A stretch of DNA of 27,094 nt from a virus. A program made the translations under genes and the position numbers. Under the pieces are notes generated by a model. The model was not told where the DNA came from, searched no databases, and worked only from the letters and a program-made list of their open reading frames with translations. Below are positions 5,536 through 19,574 of this stretch, piece by piece. Numbering within the stretch: position 1 is the first letter of the stretch; every line of letters starts with the position of its first letter. The stretch is taken from IMG/VR virus record IMGVR_UViG_3300047553_000375, positions 1 through 27,094 of that record, one strand, 5' to 3'.

Positions 5536-5991
5536 CTATTTCATAAGTCGGATACCTACCATGAAGATTAGGCACAGGCTCAGCACGACAATGGCCCAAA
5601 TGAGTGACTTGTTGGCGGCTTTCTTTACACTAAGCTCCGCATTCTTCTGCTCTAATACTGAGCGCAGATGCTGGGCAGCACCATGATCGCTCAAGACCTG
5701 ATACATAGTGTCGGTGACCTGTATAGTCTTTATAATGTCCTGCCATCTGGTCTTCCGGATATAAATGGTGTCTTTTATGCGGATGGTGTCAACGTAGATA
5801 TTCTCATTAACTATCGTATCATACCGCACCCGCTCCACCCCCTGCAGATACACTGTGTCCGATGGCCTGGGATTGTCAAGTACCCACTGGGCGATGGCTG
5901 CATCAATCTCAGCCTTCTTGCGTAGGGACCGCTTGACCGGATCGCAGGACCACAGCAGGACAAGAGCCAATAAGGTCAGCAAGAGCCTCAT
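5536..5991 (-). CDS. Probable unimolecular spanin (lipoprotein with C-terminal membrane helix)
   Basis: A 151-aa protein. The N-terminus MRLLLTLLALVLLWSC followed by D is a lipoprotein signal with the relaxed SC lipobox usual in Bacteroidota (lipid-bearing C16). The middle is a periplasmic stretch with a beta-like run of alternating VDT/KDT repeats (about 43-85) and a helix (about 104-127). The C-terminus has one transmembrane helix (SLIWAIVVLSLCLIFMVGI, about 129-147) and a short basic tail. A lipid anchor in the outer membrane plus an inner-membrane helix in one chain is the layout of u-spanins such as T1 gp11, which fuse the two membranes at the last step of lysis. It follows the holin-like gene with an ATGA overlap and ends the late operon. 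Sequence homology is not shown; the call rests on topology and context. Confidence 0.75.
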   Translation of the reverse strand: MRLLLTLLALVLLWSCDPVKRSLRKKAEIDAAIAQWVLDNPRPSDTVYLQGVERVRYDTIVNENIYVDTIRIKDTIYIRKTRWQDIIKTIQVTDTMYQVLSDHGAAQHLRSVLEQKNAELSVKKAANKSLIWAIVVLSLCLIFMVGIRLMK

Positions 5992-6229: not shown

Positions 6230-6445
6230 TTATTGGTGACGTGATGCGATAGACACCCTGATGTCGTTTATCATCTCCATCAGCTTGTCAAGCTTCTCAT
6301 TCATGGCATTGTCCGTTCGCTCCAGTCCCTTTACACGGATGTCCAGCTCTTTCATTTTAGTCTCCATACGCACATAAATGCCCAAGATTGAGCCGATGAC
6401 AGTCACTCCAAGGCCTACCATCCACATCACTATCTGCTGGCTCAT
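6230..6445 (-). CDS. Small membrane protein with coiled coil (XhlA-like layout)
   Basis: A 71-aa protein. One transmembrane helix at about 6-26 (VMWMVGLGVTVIGSILGIYV) is followed by a charged heptad-like helix from about 28 to 65 (METKMKELDIRVKGLERTDN, then more of the same pattern). This is a mirror of the XhlA layout, a haemolysin-type lysis protein with coiled coil plus one membrane helix. It is coupled by ATGA to the gene upstream and is followed by the holin-like gene, so it may be a holin partner or antiholin. This is inference from topology. Confidence 0.6.
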   Translation of the reverse strand: MSQQIVMWMVGLGVTVIGSILGIYVRMETKMKELDIRVKGLERTDNAMNEKLDKLMEMINDIRVSIASRHQ

Positions 6446-6951
6446 CCGACTTTATTTATGGTTACAATGACTGAAGGTGTTGCCGGTCGTGTAGGCGTTG
6501 ACTGAGAAGCTATGTAGTTCAGGAAGACAGATGCATCAGGAGATGACCAACACAGCTCGTAGTAATCCCCGGCAGCTGCATTCACAAAAAAGTTCCATGC
6601 GGCCACATGCTTGCCGTTATTACCGCTCAAGACCATCTGCGTATTTGTGTTGGCCACATTGCTGCCATTTTTGCACAGCCATATGTCAACATTATCATCA
6701 CCGCTGTCAGTCTTGTCGAACTGAGCGGAGAACTGGATGTTGTAAATACCGGCATTGGCAATCGTGATTCGCGAACTGCTAACAATGCTGACCCCATTGC
6801 TCACATCAGTTGTGTTCAACGTCATCTTATTGGCCGTGTTTGCCCCTGCGCTGGCTTGGTCCTGCGTGCTGTAAAATGAGCCAAAGTAAGCAGGAGTTCC
6901 TACCTGCACATTTATGTCATTGCCGCTGACTGTTACATTTACATCGCTCAT
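6442..6951 (-). CDS. C1q/TNF-like beta-jellyroll virion protein
   Basis: A 169-aa protein. Residues about 20-165 have the pattern of phage C1q/TNF-like jellyroll domains: FYSTQDQ, a conserved ISSSRITIANAGIYNIQFSAQ-type strand pair (about 55-78), then VDIWLCKNG and AAWNFFVNAAAGDYYELCWS. In phages this domain often forms trimers at the tip of fibres or decorates virions, where it may bind host receptors. The short N-terminus (MSDVNVTVSGNDINVQVG) could be an attachment strand. It overlaps the neighbouring genes by ATGA. A receptor-binding or decoration role is inference. Confidence 0.65.
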   Translation of the reverse strand: MSDVNVTVSGNDINVQVGTPAYFGSFYSTQDQASAGANTANKMTLNTTDVSNGVSIVSSSRITIANAGIYNIQFSAQFDKTDSGDDNVDIWLCKNGSNVANTNTQMVLSGNNGKHVAAWNFFVNAAAGDYYELCWSSPDASVFLNYIASQSTPTRPATPSVIVTINKVG

Positions 6952-7286
6952 GTTGTGATGTCTTTAACTACATTAAAATTCCCTTTGAGATATGTCGACA
7001 CCACACCACTGGCAAAAGTTGCCTGAAGGTCATAGTAAAGCGCACAGCTATCAGAGATGCTGACCACCTTGCTGATTGTGATAACATTATTGCCGGCACC
7101 GCTGACTGTGATGCCATCTCCTTCGGTCAGCGTCATCTTTATGTCTCCGTCCGGCTTTGTCCTGACCTCAATTTTGACGGCTGCCGTTGCCAGGCTGATG
7201 GGATTATTGCTGCCATCCACCAGCGTGATGGTACGCTCTAAGGTATCCCCTCTGTATGCCGTGATGTTGTATATGCCTGGTGTCAT
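6948..7286 (-). CDS. Small beta-rich virion protein, BppU-like N-domain
   Basis: A 112-aa protein. The start (YNITAYRGDTLERTITLVDG, residues 6-25) and the phrase AVKIEVRTKPDGDIKMTL resemble the N-terminal Ig-like domain found in baseplate upper proteins and other tail-fibre adaptors (YRGDT...DLT...K..VR pattern). It is probably a baseplate adaptor for the C1q-like protein encoded next; the two genes overlap by ATGA. No membrane helix. The family match is from pattern memory and is moderate. Confidence 0.6.
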   Translation of the reverse strand: MTPGIYNITAYRGDTLERTITLVDGSNNPISLATAAVKIEVRTKPDGDIKMTLTEGDGITVSGAGNNVITISKVVSISDSCALYYDLQATFASGVVSTYLKGNFNVVKDITT

Positions 7287-7788: not shown

Positions 7789-8148
7789 TCAGTTTTTGAG
7801 TGCTCTCCGATCCCTGTCGTTGACATTCAAATAACGCATCACCATGACGACTGCCCTATCATTCCAATTAGCCAGCGTTGACAGCCTTATGTAGTCTTCA
7901 CCTTTGATGACCACGTTGCCATCGCTTACAATCGCTCCGGTGCTATCCTGAAGCTTGTAATAAAATGTGGCAGATGTCTCCATGTCATTAAATGCGCAGA
8001 CAATATCAATGTCATCCGCATCATACACCCTCCCATCTTTCCAAACTTTTATGCGCTCAATAGGCTTCTTACGGCTGGTTTTCGTGCTATCCTGTGCAAA
8101 TACGCCAAGGCTGAAAGACACTAAAATGATTGTCAGTAATTGCTTCAT
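7789..8148 (-). CDS. Small secreted protein of unknown function
   Basis: A 119-aa protein with a clear secretory signal (MKQLLTIILVSFSLGVFAQ; cut expected after residue 18). The mature part starts with a basic stretch (KTSRKKPIERIKVWKDGR) and continues as a beta-rich domain (SATFYYKLQDSTGAIVSDG). No family recognised. It stands between the membrane protein gene and the endolysin, in the late operon. An exported product from this position could act in the periplasm at lysis, in exclusion, or be a host-derived cargo protein; none of these is shown. Confidence 0.65.
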   Translation of the reverse strand: MKQLLTIILVSFSLGVFAQDSTKTSRKKPIERIKVWKDGRVYDADDIDIVCAFNDMETSATFYYKLQDSTGAIVSDGNVVIKGEDYIRLSTLANWNDRAVVMVMRYLNVNDRDRRALKN

Positions 8149-8179: not shown

Positions 8180-8416
8180 TCACTTTTGAGCATTCTGTTC
8201 CCCCACCTGCTTCGCCACTTTTGCCCTTATCCCCTCGCTTACCTTTGCCGGGAGTTCCCCAAGTGCATCATAAATGACTTGCACCTCTTGCGTTGTTAGT
8301 TCAAGTTTGTAGGTTTTCGTTTGTTGTGGTATTGTGAATGCCATCGTAAGCGTAAACACTCCAAGCAAAAACGTAGCGATAATAACGTAACCGATTTTTT
8401 TGTCTATATTTTTCAT
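8180..8416 (-). CDS. Small membrane-anchored protein
   Basis: A 78-aa protein with one hydrophobic helix (GYVIIATFLLGVFTLTMAF, about 9-27) followed by a 50-residue hydrophilic tail with a helical stretch (TTQEVQVIYDALGELPAKVS). It may be an uncleaved anchor or a cleaved signal. Positioned 9 bases after the fibre gene. Function unknown; the tail resembles short regions found in many Bacteroidota proteins of unknown role. Base composition resembles the distal part of the fibre gene. Confidence 0.6.
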   Translation of the reverse strand: MKNIDKKIGYVIIATFLLGVFTLTMAFTIPQQTKTYKLELTTQEVQVIYDALGELPAKVSEGIRAKVAKQVGEQNAQK

Positions 8417-8425
8417 TTGATAAAG

Positions 8426-10579
8426 TTAATGAAGGTCTACCCAAGTTGTGCCGTTATACACCTTTAGTTTGTTATCATCCGTATCATAGTAAACCGTTCC
8501 GGCTTCTGCGGTTGGTGCAGCGGATTGCCCTACGAATTTCAGGCCACCGTTTGCGTGTACCCGCAATCTTTCCGTTGGTGTTGACCCATTTGATGCAGAT
8601 GTCTCAAATCTAATATTAGCATTGCCCGATGCGCCTTCTATCGCTATATCCGCAGCTGCTTTATTTGCATCCGAAAATGCACCCGTTGAAGGGTTACGAT
8701 TCACGCCTAAAATTGCGAAATCATTAAACGTACCCGCATACAAATAATTCGATGTGTTGGTTTTAATTCCAAACGCTTGATTTGCGGTTACCCCCATGTC
8801 TAATCTTACGCCCGGTGTTGATGTACCTATGCCGATGTTGCTGCTATTTGTTACCGTGAACGCAGTTGAAAATCCGCTTCCCGATCTTATCACATAATCA
8901 CCCGTGCCACTTGTGCCGAAATCCGTGTATAGTGTACCCGTTGTTCTGATGGCTTGACCACCTCCAATTTGTAACGCTACGGCTGATGGGTTGTTTAAAT
9001 ATGTTGCCCCCGATACTTGTAGTTTATAATCCCCGGCATCGGTGGTGGTGTTTAAAAGTAATTCCCCCGTTCCGTTAAATCTTGCTCGTTCACTTGCAGC
9101 AATGTCAAACGTCAAAGGAACGGCAACACTTGATGGACTGAATCCCGTAAATACGCTAACCACTTCATTTGGTGTGCCTCCGATTAACGATGCCCTATCT
9201 CCGAACGCTCCGGTAGTTCCACCGTTGACAACATTTTGTATTAATAAGGATGCACCTTGATTTGATGAATTACCTGATATCATTCTGATATAAGCAACCC
9301 CGGTATCTTGCACATCTAAAGTAACCACGGGATTTCTATTTATTCCAATCTTAATGCCATTTTCACGAATGATACTATTCCCAATCGTACTCGTCCCCGT
9401 AAACTTCGGCACATAGTTAGTCGTACCCGTTCCGGTGACCGGATTCGTTAGTACGTTCTGTTTAACGAGTGCCAATGAATCCACGACCTTGCCCACTCTC
9501 AAACGTGATGCAATCAATGCCGTGTCCGCTGAAATCGTTCCTGTTGTGGTGATAGTTCCGCCGAATAGTCCGTAACCCGTAGCGACTGACGTAACCGTTC
9601 CGCTTCCTTTCGTTGCGATGATTGCACCTAAACTATCGTCACCCTTTTGTCTCCACGCCCTTGTCGAAATGTATGTCGTGTCAATCAAGTCGGTCGGTGT
9701 GGATGATGCAGATAATACCCCGTTGGCATCTGCGACTACTGAACGTGTACCCGTACCCGTCAATGAATTGAGTCGAAACGTTCCATCTGTTTGAAAACGA
9801 CCTCTTAAACTTCCTTGAGTATAAAATCGGATATCGCCGGCACTCAGGTTATTAATGTCCATTGTCGAACCATTGTGCGACCAATAGCCACGTGCCGTGT
9901 CGGCTTTGCGCAGTACCAAGACCGATGCAGTCGAACCATTGATGTCAAATGTTCCGTATCCGGAAGATGAAATATACGGACTCGTAGTGTTGAACATTAA
10001 ATTAGTTCCCGTTTCGTAAACCTTCGAATCAACAATAGAACGGGATGCGTTGAACTTTGGTAGATAGTTTGCAGTACCTGAACCTAACATATATGGTGAC
10101 AGCATGCTGGCTGTGTCACTGATGTTTACCTTTAGATTTATCCTGTTGCTCAAAAATGCTGTGTCACTTTCTTTCAGATAAGGTGCAAGCATGGCTGTCG
10201 TGTCAGTCTTCCTGAGATATGGCAGGAGCATGGCTGCAGTATCCGCTGAAGTGATGGCAGAGCCAGTCGATCCGGTAAGGTCTGCCCACTTTGATCCTGC
10301 ACTATCCCATACCTGCATCTTGTTCTTCTGCACAGAGAAGATTAGAAGGCCGTTACGCTTGTTTGCGACCACTACAGCAGTATCTACCACGATTGGCGGC
10401 ATCATGCCCCTGACAGCCCCGTAACGAGGCCCTACGCTGAAGTATGCAGCTGTGTCAGTGACTGTGCTACGACCGGAACTCATCTTGTTTGCAAAAGTGT
10501 AGTCCGTCACAGGATTCACTTGCTGAGCATTTGTAAAAATTGTGACGATTGTGAAAATAAAAAGTAGTAGGTATCTCAT
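8426..10579 (-). CDS. Tail fibre-like protein with secretory signal peptide
   Basis: A 717-aa protein. The start at 10579 forms an ATGA overlap with the gene upstream and begins MRYLLLFIFTIVTIFTNAQQ, a typical signal peptide; the longer frame from 10633 is unlikely. Residues about 112-163 carry repeats of the type DTAxMLxPYL, probably a fibrous trimer region. Two later modules share a GT-NY-PKF-pattern (GTANYLPKFNASRS at about 168 and GTGTTNYVPKFTGTS further on), and GIGTSTPGVRLDMG follows. The C-terminus (GTVYYDTDDNKLKVYNGTTW) is a common end of Bacteroidota fibre and surface proteins. No S74 chaperone domain is seen. It follows the distal tail genes, so a receptor-binding fibre is likely; the signal peptide is odd for a virion protein. 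It could instead be displayed on the host surface. Confidence 0.75.
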   Translation of the reverse strand: MRYLLLFIFTIVTIFTNAQQVNPVTDYTFANKMSSGRSTVTDTAAYFSVGPRYGAVRGMMPPIVVDTAVVVANKRNGLLIFSVQKNKMQVWDSAGSKWADLTGSTGSAITSADTAAMLLPYLRKTDTTAMLAPYLKESDTAFLSNRINLKVNISDTASMLSPYMLGSGTANYLPKFNASRSIVDSKVYETGTNLMFNTTSPYISSSGYGTFDINGSTASVLVLRKADTARGYWSHNGSTMDINNLSAGDIRFYTQGSLRGRFQTDGTFRLNSLTGTGTRSVVADANGVLSASSTPTDLIDTTYISTRAWRQKGDDSLGAIIATKGSGTVTSVATGYGLFGGTITTTGTISADTALIASRLRVGKVVDSLALVKQNVLTNPVTGTGTTNYVPKFTGTSTIGNSIIRENGIKIGINRNPVVTLDVQDTGVAYIRMISGNSSNQGASLLIQNVVNGGTTGAFGDRASLIGGTPNEVVSVFTGFSPSSVAVPLTFDIAASERARFNGTGELLLNTTTDAGDYKLQVSGATYLNNPSAVALQIGGGQAIRTTGTLYTDFGTSGTGDYVIRSGSGFSTAFTVTNSSNIGIGTSTPGVRLDMGVTANQAFGIKTNTSNYLYAGTFNDFAILGVNRNPSTGAFSDANKAAADIAIEGASGNANIRFETSASNGSTPTERLRVHANGGLKFVGQSAAPTAEAGTVYYDTDDNKLKVYNGTTWVDLH

Positions 10580-11406
10580 GTCTTGTAAAATACTTTTATA
10601 ATCTCTCCGTATGATAAATCTTCTGTGAACCATATTTTTTGATTCACTTCATCAATAACGCACTGGTTGAATGGCACATTTGTAGATGTGGCAATGGCTG
10701 TAATGGTCACGGTCCCGGTCACACTATCGCTATATGTATAAGTAGATAGAGCGTCAGTGAGATATGCCTCCACACTACCCGTCAGCGGCACTAATGCGCC
10801 AAAGGCCAATGATGTCGGTGGCGTTGATAGTGTCGGCCATGTGAATGGGTCGGTCTTCTCTTCGATTATGTAGCTGATCGTAGATATTACCACATAGTAG
10901 CCCTTCTTATATATCTGACTGCCTATCTTGGTAAACAGATCGACCAAAGTACCGGTGATGTCTATTTGTATGCGATCAGTGCCGATCGGTGTGCACACAA
11001 CAGTAGTGCCCCATGCAGTGGCATCTATCTCTGTAATAATCGCATCCCTGACATCTTCTGCCGTGTCCCCGGTCTGCACCACATACGATGCGATGATGCT
11101 GCCCGAATATACCGAGAATACAAAGCCTGCTATCGGAGTGCTTTGCACCTTCAGAATAATCTGCCTGTCTGTGCCAGAGATGTAATCACTAAGTACCTTC
11201 AGGTCATTTGTGGCCGTTGGTGTCTCCGTCTTTATGCCATAGTATTCGTAAGTCAGCAGGTCCACATCCTCGCTGCCCGGAAAATAGGTGATATGCTTTA
11301 CACCGATGCCGTTTCGGTCAACAATAATGACATCCTGCGCATCAATGCCTGATACATTGATGTATGGACGTGGTACCCCATTGGTGTATGTAGATGCTCC
11401 GAGCAT
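10576..11406 (-). CDS. Distal tail/baseplate structural protein
   Basis: A 276-aa beta-rich protein, not matched to a named family. The N-terminal region has DVIIVDRNGIGVKHITYF (about 24-41), which is similar to the C-terminal domain of the protein encoded just upstream (LDVRRNGIGVEFITTG). The C-terminus (VIDEVNQKIWFTEDLSYGEI followed by KVFYKT) fits the same small beta-domain pattern, in which a description of a value ends in a strand before an I-V-F-Y-like terminus. The mid-part contains DRQIILKVQSTPIAGFVFSV. It is probably part of the tail tip between the hub and the fibre. The fibre gene starts in its stop codon. Confidence 0.55.
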   Translation of the reverse strand: MLGASTYTNGVPRPYINVSGIDAQDVIIVDRNGIGVKHITYFPGSEDVDLLTYEYYGIKTETPTATNDLKVLSDYISGTDRQIILKVQSTPIAGFVFSVYSGSIIASYVVQTGDTAEDVRDAIITEIDATAWGTTVVCTPIGTDRIQIDITGTLVDLFTKIGSQIYKKGYYVVISTISYIIEEKTDPFTWPTLSTPPTSLAFGALVPLTGSVEAYLTDALSTYTYSDSVTGTVTITAIATSTNVPFNQCVIDEVNQKIWFTEDLSYGEIIKVFYKT

Positions 11407-11407
11407 A

Positions 11408-12085
11408 TTAGTCTAAGAACAGTACAAGTATCCACTCACCCGCGGAAAGTGCCGTGCCAAAAGTAAGCTCTCCGGTCAACGCTGTGTACAGCACCTGGCT
11501 GCTTGTTGGTGTGCCTGTTGTAATAAATTCTACCCCGATGCCATTCCTTCTTACATCGAGTAGACCAACGCCGATGATGGATGCATCGGAGATGGTAGTC
11601 TCTCCTCCTGTGGCCGTATAATCCCAGTAGTCCACATCTGTAAGCGGCTGTGTTATGGGTGTCTGATTATATTCAGGGTCTCCCGACATTGTCAGCGAGA
11701 AGCTATATGTGGCAAGCTGCCCAACAGTGCCGGTGAAAGTCACCTCGTCAATTAAGCACGGCACCTCATAGGTCTTGAAGTTACCCTGTGGGTCAGTGGT
11801 CGTGTATTTTGTAAGTATAATCTGATGCTGCAGCTGGTAATCTATAAGGTCAAAGATGCCATATTTATTTGCATCTGCCACCACCTTTACTACACCGCTG
11901 CCTGTGATAGTGCCGGATGTACGGCCATAGATATATGACCTCCATTTACCTGTCGTATATGGTGCCAGCTCAAGCTTATCAGTCGTTTGTGAAATCGTCA
12001 CTTCTTTGGCACATGCAAATGGGTAGTAATTAGCCCCCAGCTTTACATAGAAGACTACATCTTTACCCTTTACTGCATCTGCCAT
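11408..12085 (-). CDS. Tail protein with tail-tube-like N-terminal domain
   Basis: A 225-aa protein. Residues 1 to about 148 follow the pattern of siphovirus tail tube proteins (GKDVVFYVKLGANYYPFACA, then TISQTTDKLELAPYTTGKW and later GTVGQLATYSFSLTMSG). Residues about 168-225 are a small beta domain with the RNGIGV motif and the ending ILVLFLD. A separate, shorter tube protein lies at 16686-17126, so this one, encoded after the tape measure and hub, is likely a distal tail component with a tube-like fold rather than the main tube. That is inference from gene order. Confidence 0.6.
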   Translation of the reverse strand: MADAVKGKDVVFYVKLGANYYPFACAKEVTISQTTDKLELAPYTTGKWRSYIYGRTSGTITGSGVVKVVADANKYGIFDLIDYQLQHQIILTKYTTTDPQGNFKTYEVPCLIDEVTFTGTVGQLATYSFSLTMSGDPEYNQTPITQPLTDVDYWDYTATGGETTISDASIIGVGLLDVRRNGIGVEFITTGTPTSSQVLYTALTGELTFGTALSAGEWILVLFLD

Positions 12086-18080: not shown

Positions 18081-18586
18081 ATCGGCACCCTCCGCTGGTA
18101 TTGTGTGGCCAACATTGGGAAGTCTACCAAGTTCGCCCCTTCATTTGACAAGTCTATTCCCCTGTTCTGATAAGTGTAGGCCGTTATTGAAAGAATGTCA
18201 TTCTTTGCATCTTCTGGAATGGTTGTAAAGCCATAGGTCAGGAAAATTGCATAGATGCCATCTGCATACACGCGAATTTGTGAGCCGAGCAAAGTATTTG
18301 CAGGACAATCCCCATATTCTACTGATGTGATACTATCAACCGACTGCACAGGACCAGGAAGCTCGTACCACTCTCCGGCAGTCATCTCAATGGTAAGCTT
18401 TACCGAACGTGTGCCGTATGCCTTGCCGGTGTAGTTCTCGAGCCATATCCTGGCATTCTTGATTAGCGACTCAATGAGCGTATCATCATCTGAAAAGTTG
18501 ACCTTCATGTAAGCCTTTGCTGTTGCCACGCTGACGGGCTCAGTAGTGTAGTCTTGAAGTACCTCGGTATCTAAAAGCAGATTCAT
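18077..18586 (-). CDS. Head-tail connector protein, gp6-like
   Basis: A 169-aa protein of the HK97 gp6 / SPP1 gp15 connector family, which docks under the portal. The N-terminal part shows the family pattern: EPVSVATAKAYMKVNFSDDD (17-36), then TLIESLIKNARIWLENYTGKAYG, ending in a small beta part with YELPGPVQSVDSITS. The C-terminal helix (PEDAKNDILSITAYTYQNRG) is also usual. Coupled by ATGA to the end of the glycosyltransferase gene, which therefore stands between capsid and connector genes. Confidence 0.85.
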   Translation of the reverse strand: MNLLLDTEVLQDYTTEPVSVATAKAYMKVNFSDDDTLIESLIKNARIWLENYTGKAYGTRSVKLTIEMTAGEWYELPGPVQSVDSITSVEYGDCPANTLLGSQIRVYADGIYAIFLTYGFTTIPEDAKNDILSITAYTYQNRGIDLSNEGANLVDFPMLATQYQRRVPI

Positions 18587-18930
18587 ACTCTACGTTTATA
18601 GTCCTCAATCGAGGATGCCATAAAGGTACGAAGTTCTGCAAGCTTTGCCTGTGGGTCAAGCTCACGGCTTCGCTTCTTGGCCGCATTGCTCCACTTTTCG
18701 TAAAGCTTTGGCTTGTCTAATTCCTCAATTTTGTCAACCCATAGCTTTACTTCGTCCCGGTCAAGATAAATGCCTGCCTTGCCGCAATTCTCCCGAAGGC
18801 CAGGAGTGCCAGAGGATATGACCGGTATGCCGCTGCACATGGCCTCTGTAGCCGTTCGCCCCCAGCTCTCATACTTTGATGGCATGATAAGTATCCTTGT
18901 CTGGCGATAAATCGCTTTAATGTCATTTGT
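18583..18930 (-). CDS. GT4 glycosyltransferase, C-terminal part (shifted frame)
   Basis: About 115 residues reading TNDIKAIYRQTRILIMPSKY and on. The nucleotide-sugar-binding half of a GT-B fold glycosyltransferase is clear: ESWGRTATE is the E-x7-E motif, followed by AMCSGIPVISSGTPGL and a final helix rich in charge. It has no start codon of its own at the joint; the first in-frame ATG (18885) lies inside the domain. It continues the upstream frame after a -1 step at 18930-18933. Its stop overlaps the connector start in an ATGA, as expected for the end of an intact gene. If joined, the enzyme is about 330 aa. Confidence 0.8.
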   Translation of the reverse strand, partial: TNDIKAIYRQTRILIMPSKYESWGRTATEAMCSGIPVISSGTPGLRENCGKAGIYLDRDEVKLWVDKIEELDKPKLYEKWSNAAKKRSRELDPQAKLAELRTFMASSIEDYKRRV

Positions 18931-19574
18931 TTTGGCAATACTGTCACATTTGGCGGCTGGTTAACATGCTGCCCAATATCTGACGGCTCTGAATAGCTGC
19001 CCATCACACCAATAAACTTCTTATGCGGCATTGCCTCCGCTATCTGCCGGAGGATATGGCCGCCCTTGTTTTGGTCAAGATTAATGAGTGTGATCGCTTC
19101 GTTGTACGATGGGTCAACATTGGTGTCATAATGCCGCCAGTCTACAGGAGGAGGCACCACGATGCTGTCATGTTTATATCCCAGCTGCTCCTTTGCCCAT
19201 TCGCTGTTGTAGACAATGTACTGAGGCCTGTCAGCCATGACAATGCGTCCATATGTGGATGTATTGTGAATCAGATGGAAGATGGGTTTCTTCATCACCT
19301 CCCCCATTCCAATAGTCCAGTCAGTGTAATCCAGATGTGTCATCACCGCATCGGACCACCAGAAAAGCTTCTCAATCACCATCTGCTCAGGAGGGAACAC
19401 ATCAATGCCGTCATAGACATACATGCTGTTTATGTGGTAGTGCCGTGCCTGGTGGAGCAATATCCTCACATCGCCGCCGTTGCCCTGTATGTCCTTGTTT
19501 ATCCAATGAGCCATAAACTCTGCACCGCATGTGTGCTGTGGTGGGTAAAGATGGATGCTGTTTAAGAGCTTCAT
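18747..19574 (-). CDS. GT4 glycosyltransferase, N-terminal part (frameshifted)
   Basis: The first 215 codons encode the acceptor-side half of a GT-B glycosyltransferase: MKLLNSIHLYPPQHTCGAEF at the start, PIFHLIHNTSTYGR, YIVYNSEWAKEQLG and VVPPPVDWRHYDT, then ITLINLDQNKGG at the start of the second domain. After PPNVTVLPK the real protein continues in the -1 frame; the tail in this frame (QMTLKRFIARQG and on to 18747) is not protein-like. The ATG overlaps the methyltransferase stop (ATGA at 19571-19574). The break lies at GCC AAAA C, so a lost A, a sequencing error or a real -1 frameshift are all possible. The likely role is sugar transfer to a virion or cell-surface target. Confidence 0.8.
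   Translation of the reverse strand: MKLLNSIHLYPPQHTCGAEFMAHWINKDIQGNGGDVRILLHQARHYHINSMYVYDGIDVFPPEQMVIEKLFWWSDAVMTHLDYTDWTIGMGEVMKKPIFHLIHNTSTYGRIVMADRPQYIVYNSEWAKEQLGYKHDSIVVPPPVDWRHYDTNVDPSYNEAITLINLDQNKGGHILRQIAEAMPHKKFIGVMGSYSEPSDIGQHVNQPPNVTVLPKQMTLKRFIARQGYLSCHQSMRAGGERLQRPCAAAYRSYPLALLAFGRIAARQAFILTGTK

Follow-up and report, generated by a model that had tools for sequence, protein, structure and literature searches.

Tail fibres normally fold in the cytoplasm and are fitted to the tail there, and the question raised by this locus is why a protein with the body of a phage fibre should begin with a secretory signal peptide. The window analysed is a complete IMG/VR virus record of 27,094 bases, in which the gene occupies positions 8426-10579, as the sequence-only reading had placed it, but on the minus (−) strand; the plus strand of this interval is rich in stop codons, whereas the minus strand is open over 717 amino acids. 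The start at 10579 overlaps the stop codon of the upstream gene (10576-11406, −) as ATGA. A longer reading frame from 10633 is possible, but several relatives carry a stop codon just 0-8 codons ahead of the leader, which makes 10579 the better start and agrees with the coupled start proposed earlier.

The gene closes the tail module. Read towards lower coordinates, the gene order is terminase, portal, protease, capsid, head-tail and tail tube genes, tape measure, a 673-aa tail protein, a tail tube-like protein (11408-12085, −), a 276-aa protein (10576-11406), the fibre, a 78-aa membrane protein (8180-8416, −), a small leadered protein (7789-8148, −), endolysin, the small genes 6948 and 6442, a pair of holin-like genes and, last, a lipoprotein that has a membrane segment at its C-terminus (5536-5991, −). 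The labels derive from translations and family matches, and several are our own reading. The 276-aa protein just upstream of the fibre is a possible virion partner and is present in 27/27 loci with the N-terminal domain of the fibre. By eye, it and the tube-like protein (together 10576-12085, −) share a VxRNGIG-like motif, which suggests a common small domain. Among the head and tail genes, a glycosyltransferase-like gene (18583-19574, −; label by eye) is split over two frames, and since a near relative, L057, has a single open frame, the gene is interrupted or misassembled in the window.

Behind the predicted signal peptide (10526-10579, −), the fibre has a conserved N-terminal domain (QQVNPVTDYTF...WADLTGS; 10250-10525, −) with three D-S/T-A sequons, which is found only in phages in the searches made. 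It is followed by the N-terminal half of the stalk (9470-10250, −), with the remaining nine D-S/T-[AILVMT] sequons at residues 113-367, and by a sequon-free C-terminal body (8426-9470, −) related to leaderless fibres. The fibre-like repeats noted in the initial reading proved to be genuine, as GIGTxxP, GTTNYxPKF and YYDTDDNKLKVYNGTTWVDL also occur in other phage fibres, and the body is homologous to the fibres of related phages. No significant family was found for the fibre in Pfam or NCBIfam, and the structure model of the N-terminal domain is uninformative (mean pLDDT 45). The identities of a T9SS cargo or an S74 chaperone fibre were considered and rejected: no T9SS sorting domain was detected by NCBIfam in eight exported fibres or by Pfam in seven, and Pfam gave no C-terminal Peptidase_S74 match in the exported fibres scanned. 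No lipobox was seen in the N-termini examined. Among 50,697 annotated phage records there was no relative of the N-terminal domain, the whole fibre, the small leadered protein or the 12095 gene, and the only matches of two other exported fibres there were to fibre bodies, from cyanophages, pelagiphages and others.

The leader, MRYLLLFIFTIVTIFTNA followed by QQ, begins with a basic segment, continues into a hydrophobic core and ends with small residues at −3 and −1, the predicted signal peptidase I cut falling before Gln19. Most signal peptidase I substrates of Bacteroidetes expose a glutamine that is then cyclised, known as the Q-rule (PMC10653852), and judged from its sequence the leader is a Bacteroidota signal peptide of this type. 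Searching viral contigs with the fibre brought up 55 relatives; among the 56 fibre-recruited loci (L002-L057, including one repeat of the L002 contig) 31 have a leader, 12 are cut at the 5′ end and 13 have none. All 31 leaders leave Gln at +1, although the heuristic scorer of our own that assigned them, together with reading by eye, gave a small bonus for this residue. The N-terminal domain, used as the query, picked out 27 viral loci, every one with a leader followed by QQ, a regularity beyond chance that bears out the signal peptide described in the initial reading. With the window included, +1 is Gln and −1 is Ala or Gly in 28/28, while the leaders themselves comprise 23 distinct sequences with a pairwise identity averaging 0.28, compared with 0.79 over the first 75 residues of the mature protein; the mature domain is the more alike part in 268 of 276 pairs. 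Recruitment by the tube-like protein, which picks loci regardless of the fibre, found a leader in 27 of 31 loci, and the remaining four contigs end 1-711 bases downstream, so that all 27 readable slots are leadered. Several quite unrelated N-terminal domains of other exported fibres also stand behind a leader and Gln. When 837 ORFs of the fibre loci were put through a loose scorer without the Gln bonus, 144 leaders were obtained, and the 49 with Gln at +1 are by eye the fibre, the small leadered protein and a single 66-aa protein related to the 78-aa membrane protein. In another genome whose ends are repeated, a further large protein with a leader and +1 Gln, of 440 aa, is encoded outside the fibre locus (L096; G003 28998-30320, −). 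In L026 (2650-7734) an exported-type fibre is apparently broken into an ORF with leader and Gln and a separate body ORF.

The mature part of the exported fibres is rich in a host modification motif. Bacteroidota attach O-glycans to exported proteins at D-S/T, the next residue being mostly L, I, V, T, A, S or M, and an above-chance frequency of this sequon serves as a glycoprotein signature (PMC12871550, PMC8729774). In 29 exported fibres (the window included, L009 dropped as an apparent near-copy of L006) there are 317 occurrences of D-S/T-[AILVMT] where composition predicts 111.2, whereas 48 leaderless fibres have 51 against 180.6; L026, at first sight a leaderless fibre with sequons, was excluded from the latter set because of the leader and Gln in the preceding ORF. 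The leaderless value, 0.28 of expectation, is a deeper depletion than in other cytoplasmic phage proteins. In the exported fibres D is the most raised first residue (2.85), followed by G (1.57), only S and T exceed 1.1-fold at the second position, and the third fits the motif except for Ile (11 seen, 15.9 expected). The first 100 residues past the leader hold 97 sequons where 12.1 are expected, and their density, 3.4 per 100 residues directly past the leader, has dropped to about 0.2 by residues 700-800. Tested singly, 27 of 30 exported fibres have a sequon count reached by no more than 20 of 500 shuffles, the exceptions being L006, L030 and L035.

The same excess follows hydrophobic leaders more widely. 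Over 696 ORFs the ratio of observed to expected sequons is 0.82-1.04 without a hydrophobic leader and 2.9-4.9 with one. Among families (37 of 226 have at least four members) the spanin-like lipoproteins reach 8.77, the small leadered protein 2.55 and the mixed fibre family 2.18, and two leaderless families reach 2.24 and 2.17 with small counts. The excess is strongest in the spanin-like lipoproteins (114 seen against 13.0 expected over 22 members; 5 against 0.54 in the window protein), and lysis proteins of the phage may thus be glycosylated by the host as well. For the fibres the excess has to be read with the repeats in mind: when like contexts are removed, 64 of 314 sites remain, below the 86 of the shuffles. 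Many of the sites are copies of one repeat, and the sequon evidence therefore rests on three unrelated exported families jointly. Structural repeats are unlikely to be the sole cause of the whole excess, given that the lipoproteins and the small leadered protein also display it, but they may be for the fibre taken alone. As a predicted non-cytoplasmic protein enriched in D-S/T-[AILVMT], with the reservation about repeat expansion, the fibre would with reasonable probability be O-glycosylated in a glycosylating host.

The small leadered protein encoded at 7789-8148 appears to be a dedicated companion of the fibre. Its leader, MKQLLTIILVSFSLGVFA, is followed by QDSTKT, and its core carries a DSTG sequon. 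The structure model (mean pLDDT 78) matches only uncharacterised phage proteins in BFVD and nothing in the PDB at E 0.001. Across the family the core comes either with a leader, a linker and a mostly DSTG-type sequon or with none of these. Among contigs whose fibre is exported, 25 of 27 have a leadered companion, as against none of the nine whose fibre is leaderless (naive Fisher p 6e-7, although the lineages are not independent); L025 and L081 combine an exported fibre with a leaderless companion. The sequon is found in 25/25 leadered companions versus 2/11 leaderless ones. Leaderless homologues near leaderless fibres were observed in L156, L183, L184, L189, L199, L202, L204 and L224. Since the two proteins gain and lose export together, they are likely to meet.

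The relation to leaderless fibres is clearest where the two kinds replace each other. G013, with an exported fibre, and G018, with a leaderless one, have repeated ends and were taken as complete genomes; their portals are 55% identical, the two following genes 60% and 45%, and the fibre is the third gene after the portal in both. In loci recruited by the G013 portal the slot is readable in 15 of 18, with 10 exported and five leaderless fibres. Recruitment by the G018 portal (80 loci kept of 547 found) gave 55 fibre N-termini, none with a leader, the internal starts flagged in L189 and L196 not being leaders; of the other loci, 21 are without the slot, mostly at contig ends, and four have another or a cut ORF. 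Bodies are also exchanged: of 34 exported fibres, 12 have a stretch of 90 bases or longer that is 80% or more identical to one in a set of 49 leaderless fibres. The best such stretch, 957 bases at 99.3%, lies inside the L021 gene, and in the exported L040 the last coding segment and the next gene have 362-363 bases at 99.4-100% in common with leaderless L042 and L044 and also with L029, the partners coming from other metagenomes. An assembly chimera is possible for L040 and less likely for L021. In 20 records, the matches to P0001 represent by eye one fibre gene per record, two records being cut inside the gene; this search is blind to other kinds of fibre. The leaderless fibres, of the MANKKISEL type in the same portal lineage (G018, for example), thus resemble the exported ones in slot and in body repeats, have recently traded body and C-terminal segments with them, and differ in having no signal peptide, another N-terminal domain, depleted rather than enriched sequons and a leaderless companion. 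The leader is kept in all 27 homologues with the same N-terminal domain, whereas homologues without one do exist, but only behind a different domain.

Taken together, the sequons that follow the leader, the companion leader that switches with that of the fibre, and the slot and body segments shared by leadered and leaderless fibres make functional export of the fibre very probable. One of the two options proposed at the outset was that the protein is exported and displayed on the host surface; export is well supported, but surface display is less fitting than a fibre role in view of the shared slot and the recent body exchange.

Several other explanations of the leader were weighed. The main rival to a virion fibre is that the exported protein acts in the envelope or outside the cell, in exclusion, receptor masking, as a free adhesin or as a decoy released on lysis, with the virion binding through another protein, for example the products of the two leaderless genes at 6442 (169 aa) and 6948 (112 aa, phrog_1084; together 6442-7286, −). 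The former is jelly-roll-like by a weak Pfam match to BclA_C, and the two are shared (73% and about 36-38%, respectively) by two phage lineages that have exported fibres but are otherwise different, while relatives occur in 0/34 and 1/34 leaderless-fibre loci. A pair that travels with the exported fibre and is nearly absent beside leaderless ones could be the real receptor binder of the virion, and functional export, with 27/27 leaders, the sequons and the companion, would suit an envelope role. Against this, the exported-fibre lineages L020, L028, L039 and L050 have no match to either gene in the stretches compared, the fibre gene occupies the slot of leaderless fibres and has exchanged body segments with them at up to 99-100% identity, and no surface anchor was found, be it a T9SS domain or a lipobox. 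An envelope role is on this balance regarded as unlikely. A function in lysis, in which fibre and companion would act in the periplasm as the cell opens or would brake lysis, gains some plausibility from the position of the genes directly before the endolysin and holin-like genes in the window and its relatives; in the G013 lineage, however, the fibre lies on the portal gene side and the companion elsewhere, and this function is considered quite improbable.

The remaining alternatives deny the leader a present role in secretion. Leaderless fibres demonstrate that such a body can be made in the cytoplasm, and the hydrophobic N-terminus could then be an uncut anchor for virion assembly; yet its letters drift while the basic start, the Ala or Gly at −1 and the Gln at +1 are kept, and both the companion leader and the sequons follow the fibre leader. 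The invariant +1 Gln within a drifting leader led to the rejection of this explanation, which is held to be very improbable. Bacteroidota surface proteins often carry similar tail-fibre-like repeats, and the leader might on this ground be a relic of a captured host surface gene, an origin that the sequence-only reading had offered as its other option for the module. Two scans of the genome collection found no host-genome relative (0/47 and 0/80 candidate stretches), although distant ones could be missed, since a candidate has to match a short peptide pattern after back-translation. The leader is moreover universal in the lineage and kept under change, and neither a T9SS sorting domain nor a lipobox points to a surface protein. 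An origin from the host surface is thereby disfavoured and ranks as the least probable of the explanations considered.

The explanation preferred here, and held to be somewhat probable on the sequence evidence, is that the protein is a Sec-exported tail fibre or fibre-like adhesin that is O-glycosylated and joined to virions at or after lysis. In the initial step, which is well supported, the Q-rule signal peptide would direct the fibre to the periplasm, where signal peptidase I would cut before Gln19 and the host would cyclise the glutamine. Glycosylation by the host at the D-S/T-X sites, densest directly past the leader, would follow and is supported by the sequon counts. The companion, with its own sequon, would work with the fibre in the same compartment, as the correlated leaders suggest. 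Finally, the fibre would do the job of the leaderless fibres and be joined to the tail not in the cytoplasm but once the cell is opened by the lysis proteins. Given the slot and bodies common to exported and leaderless fibres, the simplest role for the protein is that of a tail fibre, and an exported tail fibre would consequently have to meet the tail at lysis; attachment to the virion is, in our judgement, marginally probable. In other phages, fibres or spikes are known to be added to already finished particles as the last step, but no tailed phage is known to export a virion fibre before lysis.

Related systems offer partial parallels. PblA and PblB are phage tail proteins displayed on streptococcal cells and, like the fibre, may act at the host surface, but their host is Gram-positive and they are reported to reach the surface without a signal peptide. 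Phages of P. gingivalis encode Q-rule proteins that have a Sec leader with +1 Gln as the fibre does; there are five such genes, of unknown function, and the available part of that report does not term them fibres (PMC10367356). The general O-glycoproteins of Bacteroidota are likewise exported and rich in D-S/T-[LIVTASM], but they are host proteins, and glycosylation of the phage fibre is predicted from its sequence (PMC12871550, PMC8729774). In the literature surveyed, consisting of titles and abstract openings with subscription journals and preprints outside the scope, no Sec-exported or O-glycosylated tail fibre was reported for Bacteroidota phages. As to the host itself, the best-ranked TerL matches are phages of Parabacteroides and Phocaeicola at 36-37%, and neither scan of the genome collection turned up a prophage. 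The Q-rule and the sequon are both mainly Bacteroidota features (PMC10653852, PMC12871550, PMC8729774), but the argument is partly circular, as both are themselves used as host evidence and only the terminase is independent.

A broader proposal, offered tentatively and considered possible rather than probable, is that tailed phages of Bacteroidota can shift a fibre and its dedicated companion to the periplasm by acquiring Sec leaders, with a pyroglutamylated and O-glycosylated fibre being fitted only at lysis. Many fibres of Bacteroidota phages are unannotated, and the combination of leader, +1 Gln and sequon density provides a simple genomic test for exported proteins of these phages. If the proposal is true, tail assembly finishes outside the cytoplasm and the fibre carries host glycans, and a virion part matured in the periplasm, possibly with host sugars, would have consequences for host range, receptor binding and defence.
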